A stretch of DNA of 64,000 nucleotides from Methanofollis liminatans DSM 4140 (GTDB lineage Archaea; Halobacteriota; Methanomicrobia; Methanomicrobiales; Methanofollaceae): assembly GCF_000275865.1 (NCBI RefSeq), contig NZ_CM001555.1, positions 372,001 through 436,000 of the forward strand. Direction: 5' to 3'. Position 1 is the stretch's first letter; each line of letters starts with the position of its first letter. The translations under genes were made by a program, and so were the position numbers. The notes under the pieces are model-generated. The model worked only from the letters and a program-made list of their open reading frames with translations, made no database searches and was not told the DNA's origin. Positions 13,198-21,737 of the stretch are shown piece after piece.

Positions 13198-13862
13198 AGC
13201 TCTCGCGCCTCTCCACCGGTTCCCCGCTCCTCGACGACCTCCTGGGCGGCGGGCTCGAGCGGCGGACGATCACGCAGATCTACGGCGAGCCCGGCAGCGG
13301 GAAGAGCACCCTCTGCATCATGGCGGCGGTCTCCTGCCTGCGGGGCGGCGAGGACGTGGTGTATATCGATACCGAGGGCTTCTCCGCCGACCGCTTCGAG
13401 CAGATCGCCGGGGAGGAGGCGGTGGCTCTGGCCGACCGCCTCTACCTCTTCGAGCCGGCGGATTTCGTGCAGCAGGGGGTGATGATCGCCGAGGCCGAGG
13501 CCCTGCTGCGCACGAAGCGGGTCGGACTGATCGTGATGGACTCGGCGACGGCCCTGTACCGCTCCGAGCTCGGGACGACGAAGGACGCCCTCCGCACGCT
13601 CTCGCGGCATATGGTGCTCCTCCTCGGGTATGCGAAGAAGTACGAGGTGCCGGTTTTGATCACGAACCAGGTGTACATGAACGTGGACACCGACGTCTTC
13701 TTCGGGCTCGGGGGGACGGCCCTCGGGCATATCTCGAAGGCGATCCTCAGGATCGAGCGGCGGGATGCGACGCGGCGGGTCGTGCTGGAGAAGCATCGGT
13801 CGCGGCCGGCGGATACGTCGTTTGATTATGTGATTGTGGAGGAGGGGATCAGGGGGGTTTGA
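13194..13862 (+). CDS. radB: RadB recombinase paralogue
   Basis: 222 aa, typical for archaeal RadB, which keeps only the RecA-fold ATPase core of RadA. Walker A is YGEPGSGKST and Walker B is LIVMDSATALY, with the RecA-family loop ITNQVYMNV. RadB modulates RadA filaments and Hjc in homologous recombination. The GTG start at 13194 is chosen because it overlaps the larC stop (GTGA), follows a GAGGGG ribosome-binding site and begins just before the conserved KLSRLSTGSPLLDDLLGGG. Confidence 0.9.
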   Translation: MKLSRLSTGSPLLDDLLGGGLERRTITQIYGEPGSGKSTLCIMAAVSCLRGGEDVVYIDTEGFSADRFEQIAGEEAVALADRLYLFEPADFVQQGVMIAEAEALLRTKRVGLIVMDSATALYRSELGTTKDALRTLSRHMVLLLGYAKKYEVPVLITNQVYMNVDTDVFFGLGGTALGHISKAILRIERRDATRRVVLEKHRSRPADTSFDYVIVEEGIRGV

Positions 13863-14117
13863 GGGGTTTTGAGCGTAGTCTATTTTCCGGGTCAGAAGGA
13901 TGGGCAGATGCCTGTTATTGTATTGTGCTAGTTACTTGAAGATGCAAATAATCCTCTTATTCTGCTTTTAAAACCAATTAAATTCATTATTATATCTTAA
14001 ATGGGCGATTACATTTAGAAAATTATATCCTTAAGTATGAACTATTCTGGTTCTATGCCAAACAGAAAATATATCTTGTTCGTATCTTTGATCTTGATTT
14101 GGGTTTCTCTGATTTGT

Positions 14118-14126
14118 GGTTGTACC
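14118..14126 (+). repeat. Target site duplication, left copy
   Basis: GGTTGTACC, identical to 15894-15902. It encodes the GCT just at the lipobox of the interrupted lipoprotein. Confidence 0.85.
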
Positions 14127-14130
14127 CTAT

Positions 14131-14150
14131 ATTCCCGCCCACTCATAACG
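14131..14150 (+). repeat. IS terminal inverted repeat, left
   Basis: ATTCCCGCCCACTCATAACG. It matches the reverse complement of 15871-15890 at 15 of 20 positions, with the inner ATAACG identical. Confidence 0.7.
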
Positions 14151-15789
14151 AGGCAGGTGGTTCCACCCCAAGATCATAATACAACTGTATTTGTTTCTCC
14201 AGCATCTCACCCACCCTGAGGGATTTCCCTGGTTGTTCAAAACACTCAATAACATCCAGCTTATCCAACAGGCCCGGTAACGTGTAGTTCTTGAGAATGC
14301 CATTCACCTGCATCTGTTTTTTGATGTACGAGAGGTAGATCAGTGCCACAAACTGTACAAACAACTTCCCATCCAGACTCTGTTCCGATGAAACCAGAGT
14401 ACGACGCATATTCAAGCGTTCCTTGAGGTTTCCAAAGGCTTTTTCAACAACATCTTTGTTGCGGTAGAGCTCAAGAGCGGTCACTGCATCCATGGTCTCA
14501 TTGGTGATCAGGGCAAAGAATCCATAATAGCGCCTGGTCTGGTTGACACTCGCCTCATTAACCTGTACGTGTGTTCCACGGCTGGGTGTCGTCTTCACGA
14601 TGAAGTACTGCTGGTAGAGCGTCTCATGTTCAGGCACACGTTTTCCTGACTCCAGCTCCTGCTTCAGTGCGATCAACCGCCGGTCAAAGTTCTTCTCGTC
14701 TTCGGCCGCTTTATCGATGTTATAATAATAGTGAATGTACATGCGGCGTGAATCCTGGAGCGTATCGCCCTTATACGGCCGTTGCTGTGAATAATTCCAG
14801 GTGGTTCGAACCGTTCGGCAATAGAGTTCGTGGTTCTCGCTGTAATGCTCGAAGCTTCGGAATGTATCGTAGATCGCATCCAACTCTTTTCGAACAAAGA
14901 CCAACGACATCTTGACGGAGACCAGAAACTTCACCCGATTCTGAAACAGGCTGTTGATGTTGTCGCGACTATAAAACCCCCGGTCCATGACCAGTTTGAC
15001 CTTCGAATACCCGAGAATATCCAGTTCATGAAGCAGATAGCGGATTGTCTTGGTATCGGGGATATTACCGGCGAGTTTTCTATAGTAGAACGGGAGGTTG
15101 GACTCCTGCCCGAAGACGAGAGCCAGATTCAGTTGAGGGAGTCGATCATGCTCCTTGTTGTGGCCATACTGTACCTGCCTGAGGGCCTGTGAATAACTGG
15201 ACAGGGTTGTTGTATCATAGGCCCAGAATTCCTTTTCCAGCCTTCTTTTTCCCTGCAATATGAAGAATCGTTGTTTGCTCTCCTCGGTGATGCTGGCGAA
15301 CAATTCGCTGCTGCGCGGTGAGGTGAGATTGTCGCCATACGGATGTTTGTGGAGAGACCCCCACTTCTCAAAACGGTAGAGGGGCGTGCTGTCTTCAAGG
15401 ATCAGATAGTATGCGATGGAGAGGATCTGCTTGTAGGTGTCAGGAAAACACTGCTTCAGATCCCGGGTGATCCTCAGTTTCTCACCGATAGCATCCAGCA
15501 GATAGGTGGCTCCGTAAAAGGAGCGGTGCACTTTCTCAGCTGATCTTGATCCGCGCTTCACGCATACCGTATCGTCGTGTGTCTTTCTGTTTCTTCCGTC
15601 GGTGGGGACGATCTCTCCTGATTCTTTATCGACCCGACCGATCAGGGTCCGCCGGGCACGAGATTGTTTCTTCTCCTTATCCCAGTACGATACAGATTGA
15701 TAGGCATAGGTGATCCCGGATCGCTTATCGGTTTGATAGACAATTGCCGCCACCGTGGGTTGCTCCTCGTTATGGATCACATCTGACAC
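14143..15789 (-). CDS. IS1634-family DDE transposase
   Basis: 548 aa. The catalytic triad is visible: first Asp in WAYDTTTLSSYS, second Asp in KLVMDRGFYS, and Glu in YRNKDVVEKAFGNLK, the Y...E......K signature of IS4-superfamily enzymes. The start is GTG (GTGTCAGATGTG). The last codons lie inside the left inverted-repeat region, as is usual for compact IS elements. It has no sign of frameshift and is presumably active. Confidence 0.9.
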   Translation of the reverse strand: MSDVIHNEEQPTVAAIVYQTDKRSGITYAYQSVSYWDKEKKQSRARRTLIGRVDKESGEIVPTDGRNRKTHDDTVCVKRGSRSAEKVHRSFYGATYLLDAIGEKLRITRDLKQCFPDTYKQILSIAYYLILEDSTPLYRFEKWGSLHKHPYGDNLTSPRSSELFASITEESKQRFFILQGKRRLEKEFWAYDTTTLSSYSQALRQVQYGHNKEHDRLPQLNLALVFGQESNLPFYYRKLAGNIPDTKTIRYLLHELDILGYSKVKLVMDRGFYSRDNINSLFQNRVKFLVSVKMSLVFVRKELDAIYDTFRSFEHYSENHELYCRTVRTTWNYSQQRPYKGDTLQDSRRMYIHYYYNIDKAAEDEKNFDRRLIALKQELESGKRVPEHETLYQQYFIVKTTPSRGTHVQVNEASVNQTRRYYGFFALITNETMDAVTALELYRNKDVVEKAFGNLKERLNMRRTLVSSEQSLDGKLFVQFVALIYLSYIKKQMQVNGILKNYTLPGLLDKLDVIECFEQPGKSLRVGEMLEKQIQLYYDLGVEPPASL

Positions 15790-15870
15790 ATAACGATGAT
15801 AAAACTTTCGCTTCGATGGAGAAGAGCTATTTGAGATTTTAAGGATGATGGAACGAGAAATTTTTGAACA

Positions 15871-15890
15871 CGTTATGGGTTACCGAGAAT
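15871..15890 (-). repeat. IS terminal inverted repeat, right
   Basis: CGTTATGGGTTACCGAGAAT, partner of 14131-14150 (15 of 20 matching as inverted repeat). Confidence 0.7.
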
Positions 15891-15893
15891 GCA

Positions 15894-15902
15894 GGTTGTA
15901 CC
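15894..15902 (+). repeat. Target site duplication, right copy
   Basis: GGTTGTACC, identical to 14118-14126. Confidence 0.85.
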
Positions 15903-16697
15903 TCATCTTCGACAAATCTAAACTCTGCAGGGATGTCACGAGATGAAATAATCTCCAGTTCTATTGAAGTGCCGTACGGGGATCTATTCCGATATAATGA
16001 AAAATATGTTGGAAAGGTTGTTCATATGAAAGGCCAGGTATTACAAGTTTCTGAAACAGGAACAGATGATTTTGTTGTAAGATTATCTACGAAAGACTCG
16101 GGATACGGTTACTATGATGACATCGTCTGGGTTGAATTCCGGAATACAAAAGAGAGGATACTCGAAGACGATATGTTAGATGTCTATGGAGAAGTCGTAG
16201 GCATACAAAAATATACGGCAGTATTAGGAAACGAAGTTTCTATACCGGCCGTTGTTGTTAAAGTTTATAGCATCGTGGATACTGGAGAGATAGCTGTGGA
16301 TCAACTATCATCTGCTACAAGCCTCTCAGTTTCAACAATGTCAAAAAATTGGGATAGTGATGCAGATGATGATGGCATAATTATCTATCCTACTATTAAA
16401 GACTCGAATGGAAACTCGATAAAATGGGCCGGTCTTGAACTCCCCGTATCTGTTAAGATTTATACAACGAATTATAATTCAAATTTCCAACAATATAAAG
16501 ACAAACTTGTTTACACCGGAACAGGGACTCTTTCAAGCTGGGAAGATGGGAATATGTTCTCTGAAGGTGGAATTAAAGTTCCATATACTCAAATAAACGC
16601 TCCCTCTGGTGAAGATTATGGGTGGACTTATGTTACGGTGACTCTCCCCGATGGAAAACAGATTGAAGGTGTTGATAAGTTTACTTCGCTACGATAA

Positions 16698-17195
16698 TTT
16701 GAAGCAGAAAAAATCTTATTTTACTCCTTATTTGCCCATTTTGATGTAATTTGAGGTGGGATAAATGCTAAAATACACATAAATATCATTATGTTATTAT
16801 CCGCAGGGTGGCATTTCACAACAATACAAAAATGTAAATATTGGTATTGTATAATCTGTGGAATGCAATGTGGAGTTGATGTTTGGGGTAGAGGTATCCT
16901 TTATCGTATCATTGATGATTTTACTAAAAATTTCAATGATGATGAAGTTGAATATTCTCATTACAACGTTTGAAGGATCTATTGGGGTGGAGGCAGGTTT
17001 GCCTTCTCCTTCAATGTTATGATCAGATACTCAAACTCTAAACAGAAGCCACCCTAATAGATCAAGGGGGGTTCGATTCCCCCGCTCCACTTATTTTGAT
17101 ATCTTAAAATTCCAAAGGAATAGTGGTACGAGGACACCTCCTACTACGATCCCGAAAAAAAGCAGATCCGACACAAATTATTTTATTGTATTCTT
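16698..17195. other. AT-rich gap with tRNA-like remnant and inverted repeats
   Basis: No convincing gene. A 60-codon open frame at 16791-16973 has no ribosome-binding site and no recognisable motif. Near the end, ATTGGGGTGG (16981-16990) pairs with CCACCCTAAT (17049-17058) around an inner hairpin (GAGGCA/TGCCTT). A tRNA 3' half follows at once (see 17066-17091). Confidence 0.5.
17066..17091 (+). pseudogene. tRNA 3'-end remnant (T arm plus acceptor strand)
   Basis: GGGGG-TTCGATT-CCCCC (17067-17083) is a perfect T stem-loop, followed directly by a seven-base acceptor strand GCTCCAC and one T in the discriminator position. Six of these seven bases could pair with GTGGAG at 16987-16992, but no D arm or anticodon arm can be built between them, so it is not a complete tRNA. 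The geometry is what an integrase leaves when an element enters the 3' end of a tRNA gene. Confidence 0.5.
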
Positions 17196-19778
17196 TTAAA
17201 TCATTAGATCCGAAGAATGACCTATAATTGCGATTTTTGGTTCATTTAGGATCTTTTCAATCAAAGGATCACGATCATCCATCTTTTGCTTAAATTCATC
17301 TTTGGAGAGGAGGATATTGTTTATCTCAATCTTAATGATATCCTGGGCTTTTTTAAGGGCATTACGAATACATTCTGGATCTGGTTCACCAATAATAAGA
17401 AGATCTAATTCTCTACTTGAATTAAAATACGTAAAAACAAAAGATCCATAAATAAACATTCCATCTATCTTTTCACTCGTCAAAAATGCGTTTTTTATAG
17501 CATTTACAACAGATAATCGCTTTAATGTGTCTTTGGCATCTTGACCGTCGTTCCATTTCTCTTTTGAATCCTCTTCTAACAATTGGATAATGGTCGGGTT
17601 TGATATTCCTTTTTTTGCAAGGGCTCGTGCAGCTCCATGGCGAAGATCGTCTCTTGATAATGCAGATTTGAGAGCACAAATTGCCTTAGGATCATCTGAC
17701 ATTCCCAAATAATGAACCGTGGCACCTTTCACACTTTTAGCTTTGTCAAATAACCTCTCCAAGATTGGTTCAATTATGAGTGGTTCATGAGATTGCCCTT
17801 TTTTTACCGTAAGTAATGATCTTATGGCCGCCTCTCTGACCGAACCATTGGTATCATTAAGACATTTAATCAAAGGCTCAATTTTTTTTGGATTATCTAC
17901 TTCAGATAAATCATATGCTGCTCTCCTTCGAACAGCAGGATCGCGGTCCATCAATTTTTGAATTAACAATTCTACTTTTTGATTCTTCTTTAGTGGATCT
18001 GTCATGATGATTTTATCATTTACAATAGATTCATCAAAAGAATTGGACAAACATCCAGATTTCTTGAGTGCCTCATAGAAGAATAATATCATATCTTCAA
18101 TTGGGGCATTTTTATCGAGTTCAGGATTACTGTACTTGTCTGGAATTGATGGATTATAGAACAAATTATGTTTTAATGTTGATTTATCCCATAGTGAGTT
18201 GAAATTAAATTGATGGGGGTGTCCCTTTAACTTAGTCCCAATATGGATATCATTTTGATAATATGCTGCTACCATGAGAGATTGAAGGATATTGTTCTTT
18301 CTTACGAAATCGAAGTGAGGTATAAGTTGTAATATTGTATCGACCGCGCATTCATAATTTCCGAATAAAAGATGCCTTTCAAGCCCGTAATAAAATATAA
18401 ATACATAACCCAGAGCAACTGGCTTTGTAATATCTCTCAACCAATTTAGATAGATATACTTTTGCTGAGGACTTAAATTTTTGAATGTAGGATAATATTC
18501 TAGAGATTCTAAGGGATCTATTTTGGGGTTCATTATAATCTTATGATTACTATATATTAGGCTGGGTTCAGTTTTTGGAACTTTTAAATTGTATTTGCCA
18601 TCTTTGAACCACAACAATTTGAGTATATTATTTGGTATTTTATAATTTTTAATATACTGTTCTACTATCATTTCAATAATGGGGCCTGATTCACTCTTTG
18701 ATTGTAATATATTGGAGTATATTTCATCATCATAGAATAGTTTATATTCAATCAATGAATCGCGTGCAGTTTCTGAGATTATAATATTGGAATCTCTGGT
18801 TAATTGTATCAATGAATCTATTACCGGACGAATCTTTTTTTGCGCTTCTAAATAATCATCATTATCTAGTTCTTCTAAATTTTCATCATCTAGATCAAAT
18901 TCAAAAAATGATGATATACTCTTTCCAATTTCCCCCAATGCTCTAATTGCACAGAGTTTTACTTTATCGTTATCAGAGTTGAGATGATGATTTATTACAT
19001 CTATCGCTGGCAAACCTATTTGACCAATGGAATTTAAAGCGTTCTCTTGAAGTTCTTTTTCGCTGTATTGAATTAAAATGTCAAAAAGAAAATTAATTGT
19101 CCACTCATTTGTAACACATCCTGAATATCGTAATATCATCGCGAGTTTACTCGTTGGTAAATCCTGAATTGACTTTAATAACTCTGAATAGGCGTATTGA
19201 CCCTGAGAAGAGAGAAAATAGATTAGGGCTTCATCACTGACTTCACTATATTCATCATTTAAAAATAGATGAAGTAGAATTTTGGCCGATTCGGGATCTT
19301 TAATCCTTCCAATTATTCCAATGATCGACACACGTTTCTTAGGATCAGCACTCCGGAGATGTTCTTCCAGTAATGGAATGATCCAATTTCCATATCCTGC
19401 AAGAGTACTAATAGCACTTTGTCTTACATGCTCGTTAGGGTCATTGAGGACAGAAAACAGATATGGAATGAATTCTTCATCTTGAAGAAAACTAAGTGAA
19501 AATATTCCACAGGCTCTACACTTGGGATCAGTATCATAAAGCAGTTCTTTTATTGAATCGATTGAAACATTTTTCATCTTCCCTAGCGCTCTTGCAGGGG
19601 GTAGTGCATCATAGAAATCATCCTTCTTTTTTATAATCGCTATTAATTGGGACGTCGTGCGGGGGTCATTAAACTCTGCAATTTTGTCTGCTATTTCTAT
19701 CTCATCTTCTTCGGGATTAAAATCGTTAGATGAAAGTTTTTCTAGTAATTTATCAACCGATATCTTATTAAAATTCAT
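17196..19778 (-). CDS. HEAT - TerB-N-like - HEAT - nucleotidyltransferase protein
   Basis: 860 aa. Residues about 25-350 are HEAT-type helical repeats (for example LNDPNEHVRQSAISTLAGYG). About 415-530 resemble the TerB-N domain of tellurium-resistance/stress systems: LSPQQKYIYLNWLRD followed by LGYVFIFYYGLERHLL. About 600-735 are more HEAT repeats (DRDPAVRRRAAYDLSEV). About 755-860 are a minimal nucleotidyltransferase: IYGSFVFTYFNSSRELDLLI keeps GS and one Asp, with Glu at the other metal site, then IEINNILLSKDEF and a DPLIEKILNEPKIAIIG ending. The ATG at 19778 follows GGAG; the longer open frame upstream is GC-rich and unrelated. AT-rich codon use marks it as acquired. Role unknown; defence or stress signalling is an inference. 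Confidence 0.75.
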   Translation of the reverse strand: MNFNKISVDKLLEKLSSNDFNPEEDEIEIADKIAEFNDPRTTSQLIAIIKKKDDFYDALPPARALGKMKNVSIDSIKELLYDTDPKCRACGIFSLSFLQDEEFIPYLFSVLNDPNEHVRQSAISTLAGYGNWIIPLLEEHLRSADPKKRVSIIGIIGRIKDPESAKILLHLFLNDEYSEVSDEALIYFLSSQGQYAYSELLKSIQDLPTSKLAMILRYSGCVTNEWTINFLFDILIQYSEKELQENALNSIGQIGLPAIDVINHHLNSDNDKVKLCAIRALGEIGKSISSFFEFDLDDENLEELDNDDYLEAQKKIRPVIDSLIQLTRDSNIIISETARDSLIEYKLFYDDEIYSNILQSKSESGPIIEMIVEQYIKNYKIPNNILKLLWFKDGKYNLKVPKTEPSLIYSNHKIIMNPKIDPLESLEYYPTFKNLSPQQKYIYLNWLRDITKPVALGYVFIFYYGLERHLLFGNYECAVDTILQLIPHFDFVRKNNILQSLMVAAYYQNDIHIGTKLKGHPHQFNFNSLWDKSTLKHNLFYNPSIPDKYSNPELDKNAPIEDMILFFYEALKKSGCLSNSFDESIVNDKIIMTDPLKKNQKVELLIQKLMDRDPAVRRRAAYDLSEVDNPKKIEPLIKCLNDTNGSVREAAIRSLLTVKKGQSHEPLIIEPILERLFDKAKSVKGATVHYLGMSDDPKAICALKSALSRDDLRHGAARALAKKGISNPTIIQLLEEDSKEKWNDGQDAKDTLKRLSVVNAIKNAFLTSEKIDGMFIYGSFVFTYFNSSRELDLLIIGEPDPECIRNALKKAQDIIKIEINNILLSKDEFKQKMDDRDPLIEKILNEPKIAIIGHSSDLMI

Positions 19779-20360
19779 ATCTCCGCATTTAACATTGAAT
19801 AATAAATTATTTTCGTATTTATCTGGTCGACTTTCCTCAGTAAGTGTTTTAGGACAGTAATTCCCATTGTGAGCGGATTCCGGTGCCTCTGGCATGGTGC
19901 GGGGCGAGCCATATCTGAACCGGCGGCGAGGGGCAAAGCGACGAAACCGCGGGCTTACCACCGCACCAGAAAAAGTCTGGAGTGAGGCTAGTGGGTGTGG
20001 TACCATTAAATCGCAGGCTCCCTCCCCTTTTTTCGCCGGGCCCCTCGACAATCGCATCTCTGATCGCAATCTCTCCAGCGGTAATGATCATAACCTCTCC
20101 GCGATTGAACATCGACCTGAACGGACCTGATAAAAGATTGGACCACTCAGTACCCGAACCGCCACTCATATGTAGTGTAGCCCAGCCACTCGATAATCAC
20201 CACGATCATCTGGATGCCCCTTCTGTTTTTACCGTGATTATCTCACGCGAAGACGCGAAAAGACGCGAACGTGCCGTAACTATCCGGGATCGCCGGTATA
20301 TGCATGGTCCTATGTCAAACTGCGCCTTCGTATGATCCGATGGGGTGCTGTATGCCCGTC
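19779..20360. other. Gap with no supported gene
   Basis: GC content jumps near 19860, which marks the right edge of the AT-rich island. Open frames on both strands (for example minus 19849-20169) have no motif or convincing ribosome-binding site. GACGCGAA recurs three times at about 20242-20268. On the minus strand near 20215-20153 a 20-codon frame (MIVVIIEWLGYTTYEWRFGY) could be a peptide or a gene scrap. Confidence 0.4.
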
Positions 20361-20447
20361 CATAACCCCCCAAACATACTTAATTTCGCCGGGTTATAAT
20401 CACTCAAAAACATACATTTATGCCAGGTTATAACCCACCAAAACTTC
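20361..20447 (+). repeat. Three 34-bp repeats forming the ATPase promoter
   Basis: Imperfect units at 20361-20393, 20394-20427 and a partial unit from 20428 run up to the start codon. Each begins with a CATAAC/TTATAA core followed by a C- and A-rich stretch, and the last junction contains the palindrome GGTTATAACC. The TTATAA cores can serve as TATA boxes, and their repetition at fixed spacing suggests a repressor-binding array. A second copy with the same 34-bp unit lies at 22491-22547. Confidence 0.6.
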
Positions 20448-21737
20448 ATGGCCGATCTCCTCGAACTCCTGGTCGCCCTCAATCCCTGGTGGAGCGGCAG
20501 GCCCTTCGACACCGGCGTCCGGCGGGACCGCTATCTCTCGACGATCAAAAAATATTGTGCGTCCGGGGAGATCGTGGTCCTCAGCGGCGTCCGGCGCTCG
20601 GGCAAGACCACCCTGCTGTACCAGATGATCGAGGATCTGATCCAGAACCGGGGCGTCGACCCGCGATCGATCCTCTTCGTCAACTGCGACGAGCCCGCCA
20701 TGGTCCACCTGGATATGCCGCTGGATGCGGTGCTCGAGACCTACCGGTCGAACGTCTGGAGCGGAGAGGGGGCATGGCTCGTCTTCGACGAGGTCCAGGC
20801 GATCGCCGGGTGGGAACGCTGGATCAAGGCGACCTATGACCGCAAACAGTTCAGGCTGGTGATCTCGGGATCTTCCTCCTATCTCCTCGATTCGGAGGTC
20901 TCGACCCTGATCAGCGGGCGCTACCTGGCGGTGCCGGTCTATCCCCTCGACTTCGCCGAGTACCTCCAGTTTCGCGGGATGGAGATCGAGCCCGAGCCGG
21001 TCGCCCTCGCCGCCAGAAAATACGACATTTTGAACCTGCTCGGGCAGTACCTCAGGGAGGGTGGTTTTCCGCAGGCCGTGCAGCAGGAAGACGAGGGCGT
21101 GAAGTCTGATCAACTCAGGGCGTACTATGACAGCATCGTCTACCGCGATATCGTCCAGGTGAACGATGTGCGCAACCAGCGAGCGCTTGCCGACCTCCTC
21201 TCCTACCTCCTGGCCAACATCGCCTCGCCCTACTCCTACCGGCAGCTGGTAGAGGTGCTGGGGATCGAGGCGGCGACGATCAGGGAGTACATCCGCTATG
21301 CCGAGATGGCGAGGGTGCTCTTCGAGGTCAGGTATTTCAGTTACTCCCTGAAGGTGCAGGCGCGGAACAACAGGAAGGTCTACTGCATCGATACCGGGCT
21401 GAGGAATGCCGTTTCGTTCACGTTCTCGGCCGATGAAGGCCGGTGTGTCGAGAACCTGGTCTATCTCGAACTCCGGCGGCGGGGCTACGACCCCTATTAC
21501 TGGAAAAAGAACGGAGAGGTGGATTTCGTCCTGAAAAACCCGGACAACACCCTGACCGCGATCAACGTCACCTACACCGACACCCCGCCTGAGCGGGAGA
21601 TGAATGCGCTCCGGGAGTTTGCCGGGGAGTTTGGCGGCCGGACAAAGGATCTGGTGCTGATCACGAAGGATATGGTGCGGACGGACGGAGAGATCAGGTG
21701 CGTCCCGCTCTGGCGGTGGCTCCTCGGGGTGGAATGA
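20448..21737 (+). CDS. AAA ATPase with DUF4143 C-terminal domain
   Basis: 429 aa. An N-terminal P-loop ATPase carries Walker A SGVRRSGKTT (about residues 46-55) and Walker B WLVFDEVQ, then sensor region VISGSSSYLL. A C-terminal part has ENLVYLELRRRG and a nuclease-like strand pattern GEVDFVL...INVTYT, as in DUF4143 ATPases, which are abundant and often variable in archaea. Function is poorly known; links to mobile elements and stress have been suggested. There is no Shine-Dalgarno sequence, and the gene sits directly on the 34-bp repeat promoter. Confidence 0.85.
   Translation: MADLLELLVALNPWWSGRPFDTGVRRDRYLSTIKKYCASGEIVVLSGVRRSGKTTLLYQMIEDLIQNRGVDPRSILFVNCDEPAMVHLDMPLDAVLETYRSNVWSGEGAWLVFDEVQAIAGWERWIKATYDRKQFRLVISGSSSYLLDSEVSTLISGRYLAVPVYPLDFAEYLQFRGMEIEPEPVALAARKYDILNLLGQYLREGGFPQAVQQEDEGVKSDQLRAYYDSIVYRDIVQVNDVRNQRALADLLSYLLANIASPYSYRQLVEVLGIEAATIREYIRYAEMARVLFEVRYFSYSLKVQARNNRKVYCIDTGLRNAVSFTFSADEGRCVENLVYLELRRRGYDPYYWKKNGEVDFVLKNPDNTLTAINVTYTDTPPEREMNALREFAGEFGGRTKDLVLITKDMVRTDGEIRCVPLWRWLLGVE

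Follow-up and report, generated by a model that had tools for sequence, protein, structure and literature searches.

An 860-codon gene was identified on the minus strand of a 64 000-nucleotide stretch of the genome of Methanofollis liminatans DSM 4140 (hereafter the window), representing positions 372001–436000 of the single 2.48 Mb contig that makes up this genome. The open reading frame is uninterrupted; its ATG is closely preceded by GGAG, which resembles a ribosome-binding site, and the frame stays open further upstream, giving 957 aa with a TTG start. GC content at the codon positions was 0.44, 0.29 and 0.27, a clear codon-position bias, the other frames across the gene contained 41–101 stops, and the probability of a stop-free stretch of 860 codons based on composition alone was ~1e-30. 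The gene is a real coding sequence. It is AT-rich, with a GC content of 0.25–0.38 over the tabulated segments compared with ~0.6 in the surrounding region, and stands alone, both as previously described; an operon was considered and rejected, as no partner gene lies beside it.

Table 1. Features of the 860-codon gene and of the slot in which it lies (window coordinates)
Feature	Position	Strand	Basis
860-aa gene	17196..19778	(-)	ATG at 19778, stop at 17196; uninterrupted ORF
N-terminal HEAT solenoid, residues ~1-345	18744..19778	(-)	Pfam HEAT_2/HEAT; AlphaFold model; Foldseek
TerB_N region, residues 384-530	18189..18629	(-)	PF13208, SngA profile, AlphaFold model
TerB_N Pfam core, residues 402-478	18345-18575	(-)	PF13208, 47.2 bits
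Second HEAT block, residues 591-735	17574..18008	(-)	HEAT_PBS, HEAT_2 and Cnd1 matches (Pfam); low model confidence
Degenerate MNT, residues 751-860 (G778 S779 ... E790-L-D792 ... E818)	17199..17528	(-)	PDC-M05A, family alignment
Glu790 codon, first metal-binding Asp position	17409..17411	(-)	Asp in 29/29 relatives
Variable slot, radB to AAA ATPase	13873..20383		blastn vs four same-genus genomes
IS transposase (DDE_Tnp_1) inside small exported-protein gene	14143..15789	(-)	Domain match
tRNA/tmRNA-like stretch (T-arm and acceptor end)	16984..17092	(+)	Rfam tmRNA 21.6 bits, under gathering score 47

The slot containing the gene lies between radB, which ends at 13862, and a gene encoding an AAA_14/DUF4143 ATPase at 20448; both flanks are collinear with their counterparts in the closest same-genus genome. 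It measures 6.5 kb in the window versus ~3.1 kb of other DNA in this closest relative, where two transposase-like genes were recognised by reading, and it differs again in three further same-genus genomes, one of which has a gene for an Mrr-type endonuclease. The slot is thus variable from species to species; these comparisons do not show it to be a defence island. The preliminary description had put an IS-hit gene on one side of the gene and a tRNA scar on the other, a placement that needs correction, since both are downstream on the same side and the other neighbour is the ATPase gene. ORFs 14037–14219 and 15864–16697 appear to be the two halves of the gene split by the IS, and a simple scan for IS terminal repeats at 14037–16697 found none. 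The product of the split gene (~14037–16697) is small, exported and possibly lipoprotein-like. The tRNA/tmRNA-like stretch folded better than all except one of 200 shuffled sequences; it was rejected as a proven att site, a search of the same genome for a second copy with up to three mismatches having found none.

Profile searches upheld the proposed domain order, HEAT–TerB_N–HEAT–minimal nucleotidyltransferase (MNT), with the qualifications that only the first half of TerB_N is represented and that the Pfam Polbeta match at the C-terminus (16.6 bits) is under the cut-off of 26.9. HEAT repeats, with a HEAT_2 match at 1e-42 (Pfam), flank the TerB_N match on both sides. An AlphaFold model of the full protein, built with 16 relatives, supported the first solenoid (block pLDDT mostly 74–82 over residues 100–280), and its Foldseek matches were HEAT/alpha-Rep solenoids; past residue 525 the model is poor because none of the relatives used cover that part. 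A search of NCBIfam returned mainly HEAT-type lyase families, none close to cut-off. The second HEAT block is 41% identical over ~139 residues to HEAT proteins of related methanogens; unlike the window protein, no archaeal HEAT-repeat protein in the genomes searched is joined to TerB_N or MNT.

Similarity to TerB_N, on which the preliminary reading depended, is present at profile level, the PF13208 score of 47.2 bits exceeding the curated cut-off of 25. The match spans profile positions 29–107 of 207, that is, the front part of TerB_N and not the whole domain. Structure modelling, as proposed in the preliminary description, gave a confident TerB_N core (pLDDT 85–93 over residues 431–490), and a PDB sequence search with the TerB_N region found no convincing match. 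All 43 TerB_N proteins collected match PF13208. HEAT repeats occur in the window protein only (0/42 of the others), and no nucleotidyltransferase (NTase) family was found in the other 42 among the 25 of 29 families listed. The closest likeness is to free-standing TerB_N proteins, archaeal or phage-borne, that match PF13208 but have no TerB or TerB_C; the core is 47–54% identical to the nearest archaeal ones over 95–140 residues, and an alignment of the TerB_N region with the nearest of them gave 47–49% across the segment aligned. These proteins carry more of TerB_N and no HEAT repeats, and many end in a zinc ribbon, TPR or Mu_F tail. Aligned with them, the window protein is without ~24 residues ahead of EPSLI, their conserved SFQSYS is missing or unrecognisable and the later part could not be aligned; the core retains the residues that are invariant among its relatives.

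The genomic surroundings of free-standing TerB_N genes were also inspected. One gene adjoins an S24 repressor gene with an integrase farther along, others lie in clusters of phage tail genes, as judged by reading the sequences, another is located between terminase and portal genes, and three of the proteins are fused to Phage_Mu_F. Some archaeal TerB_N genes adjoin genes judged McrBC-like by reading, for which profile searches gave weak restriction matches only. Free-standing TerB_N is thus a recurrent phage or prophage cargo (L039:5929-7389, L050:7728-8849, L083:5353-7194, L041:4908-6434, L058, L064 and L076). At L018:7142-11649 an archaeal TerB_N gene is directly followed by a TIR-nSTAND gene, for which ThsB-like and PDC-S60 matches were obtained; the two genes are a candidate defence unit. 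The human-feces phage record at L041 and the Alkalibacterium contig at L079 have an equal length of 57209 and an identical TerB_N tail sequence and may be a single contig recorded under different names.

TerB_N is also part of SngA (TerB_N-TerB-TerB_C) of Shango, an experimentally demonstrated anti-phage system (PMC10250203). The PADLOC SngA profile matched residues 341–489 of the window protein at 6.3e-11. In contrast to SngA, the window protein has no TerB and no TerB_C match (Pfam), and neither an SngB ATPase nor an SngC helicase gene lies beside its gene, the neighbours being those described above. In relatives, complete TerB_N-TerB-TerB_C proteins are accompanied by an ATPase and a helicase, and these triads match SngA, SngB and SngC (PADLOC). 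A Shango-like set of TerB_N protein, ATPase and helicase was observed in the M. liminatans genome itself, at L020 (G000:C1:1263000-1277000, ~C1:1270000). The 860-aa protein might act through its TerB_N as an accessory to, or decoy for, this distant system of its own host, homologous triads of which match SngA/B/C in relatives. We regard this as very unlikely, given that the two TerB_N sequences share only 33% identity over 66 residues, that TerB and TerB_C are missing from the window protein and that its gene is unlinked to the Shango-like set.

The C-terminal region was assigned to the MNT of the PDC-M05 lineage, the PADLOC PDC-M05A profile matching residues 753–858 at 2.7e-14. Together with the SngA match, this bears out the link to defence families suggested earlier. 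A PF01909 scan of the genome matched 19 other NTases and missed the window MNT. The window MNT is most closely related to archaeal wHTH-MNT proteins, the majority of them 187–230 aa long, the better matches being 26–35% identical. A model of the MNT alone, built with 12 generic MNTs from viral contigs, had the expected a-b-a-b-a-b topology at low confidence (pLDDT 62.9); the best true NTase match of this model in Foldseek (probability 0.57, E 0.79) was below significance, and those of its PDB matches with the better probabilities, also non-significant, were to LinB, HEPN-MNT and MNT antitoxin crystals. The predicted NTase fold is therefore based on sequence profiles and not on the model, and a PDB sequence search with the MNT found no convincing match. 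In viral contigs, family patterns found no member of the lineage and a looser pattern recovered generic MNTs only.

The loci of MNT relatives differ from that of the window. In 25/29 of them a short gene follows directly downstream; two of these genes were examined, both of them PF05168 HEPN (Pfam), and one of these two MNT and HEPN pairs matches PDC-M05A and PDC-M05B. PDC-M05A/B, a PADLOC candidate system of wHTH-MNT and HEPN that is kin to the HEPN-MNT type VII toxin-antitoxin, thus resembles the window protein in its MNT domain; it differs in having a winged helix where the window protein has HEAT repeats, in its first metal-binding Asp and in its HEPN gene. No HEPN gene lies beside the window gene, and a search with PF05168, one of two HEPN families (the other being PF01934, DUF86), found no match in the whole genome compared with matches in 6/14 control genomes.

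The replacement of a metal-site Asp by Glu reported earlier was confirmed by the family alignment, in which the first metal Asp is conserved in the MNTs of all 29 relatives' loci and the window protein reads GS-X10-E790-L-D792. In place of the GSX10DXD active motif of HEPN-MNT/PDC-M05 it has GSX10ELD. Further departures from the family consensus (A781V, G783T, S789R and R817I, in addition to D790E) fall at positions conserved in 27–29 of the 29 relatives, and 16/32 near-invariant positions are kept compared with 24–32 in other members, whereas G778, S779, D792 and E818 are retained. The single exchange D48E was enough to abolish HEPN AMPylation by a Legionella MNT (PMC11586414), and Shewanella MntA D39E/D41E lost AMPylation yet still bound HepT as an octamer (PMC7641770). 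Judged from the sequence, Glu790 and the altered G-loop, together with the inactivity of these mutants, make it likely that canonical AMPylation has been lost.

The preliminary description had proposed a regulatory or anti-phage switch that nucleotidylates a target; in such a switch, the HEAT and TerB_N parts would sense a signal and the MNT would modify the target. The superfamily-wide NTase motif [DE]h[DE]h permits Glu at the first metal position (PMC4125220), and the window MNT carries the superfamily motifs hG[GS], [DE]h[DE]h and h[DE]h (YGS, ELDL and IEI, respectively); it keeps the GS as well as the second Asp and third acidic residue, and its sister MNTs in the lineage are predicted to be enzymes, with HEPN genes as their partners. 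These features argue for an active switch. The permitted Glu and the retained residues also count against a non-catalytic reading, since some activity on another substrate may remain. The same-position exchange that kills the Legionella enzyme, the double mutant that kills MntA, the altered G-loop and the lack of a partner gene, with no PF05168 HEPN across the genome, argue against it, so that the proposal of target nucleotidylation is weakened and we consider an active switch improbable.

No second protein with the order HEAT-TerB_N-HEAT-MNT was found when 394 genomes of the phylum were searched with the TerB_N segment or with the HEAT-MNT half (E<=1e-15), in the viral contigs searched, or in the phages and plasmids searched. 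A scan for F[IV][FL]YYGLE in one genome per species of 84,980 species, which would miss relatives in which the motif is altered, did not find the order either. The combination is real and so far unique in the sets searched, consistent with the earlier statement that no system with this order is known to have been described.

A unique protein with half a TerB_N and a degenerate MNT, located next to a gene broken by an IS, might also be non-functional or decaying cargo, a product of recombination that has persisted by chance in a variable slot. This is a serious rival, if an unlikely one: 860 codons have stayed intact in DNA that is AT-rich, the codon-position bias is clear, the start codon has the GGAG ahead of it and the TerB_N core retains the invariant residues of its relatives.

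The explanation that we favour, tentatively and at somewhat less than even chance, is that of an orphan, fast-evolving chimeric cargo protein that acts by binding, with an MNT that is probably non-catalytic and a presumed part in phage or mobile-DNA conflict. A HEAT solenoid bears the front half of TerB_N mid-chain and the MNT at its end; the MNT would derive from the wHTH-MNT/HEPN (PDC-M05) lineage, its DNA-binding domain having given way to the HEAT scaffold. With Glu for Asp at the first metal ligand and the further G-loop changes, the MNT has probably lost canonical catalysis and would likely serve as a protein- or nucleotide-binding module, by analogy with MntA-D39E/D41E, which binds HepT without modifying it, while the solenoid and TerB_N would dock a partner or ligand. 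We infer both the non-catalytic action and the defence role; the latter, directed at phages or mobile DNA of other kinds, is suggested by where the two domains come from and by the variability of the locus. This explanation is strengthened by the TIR-nSTAND, McrBC-like, repressor/integrase and phage tail genes that adjoin TerB_N relatives; it is weakened by the low model confidence for the MNT and the second HEAT block and by the non-significant NTase matches in Foldseek. A bolder version, in which the protein would represent a single-chain archaeal defence architecture comprising a HEAT solenoid, a TerB_N sensor and an MNT effector with a Glu-Asp metal site that operates independently of HEPN, seems quite improbable.

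The window protein shows that insertion of TerB_N, a domain of Shango and Ter systems, into a HEAT solenoid alongside an MNT is possible and, if it works, would offer a compact means of studying what TerB_N recognises. The free-standing TerB_N proteins of prophages are a better route to the function of TerB_N than this singleton fusion.
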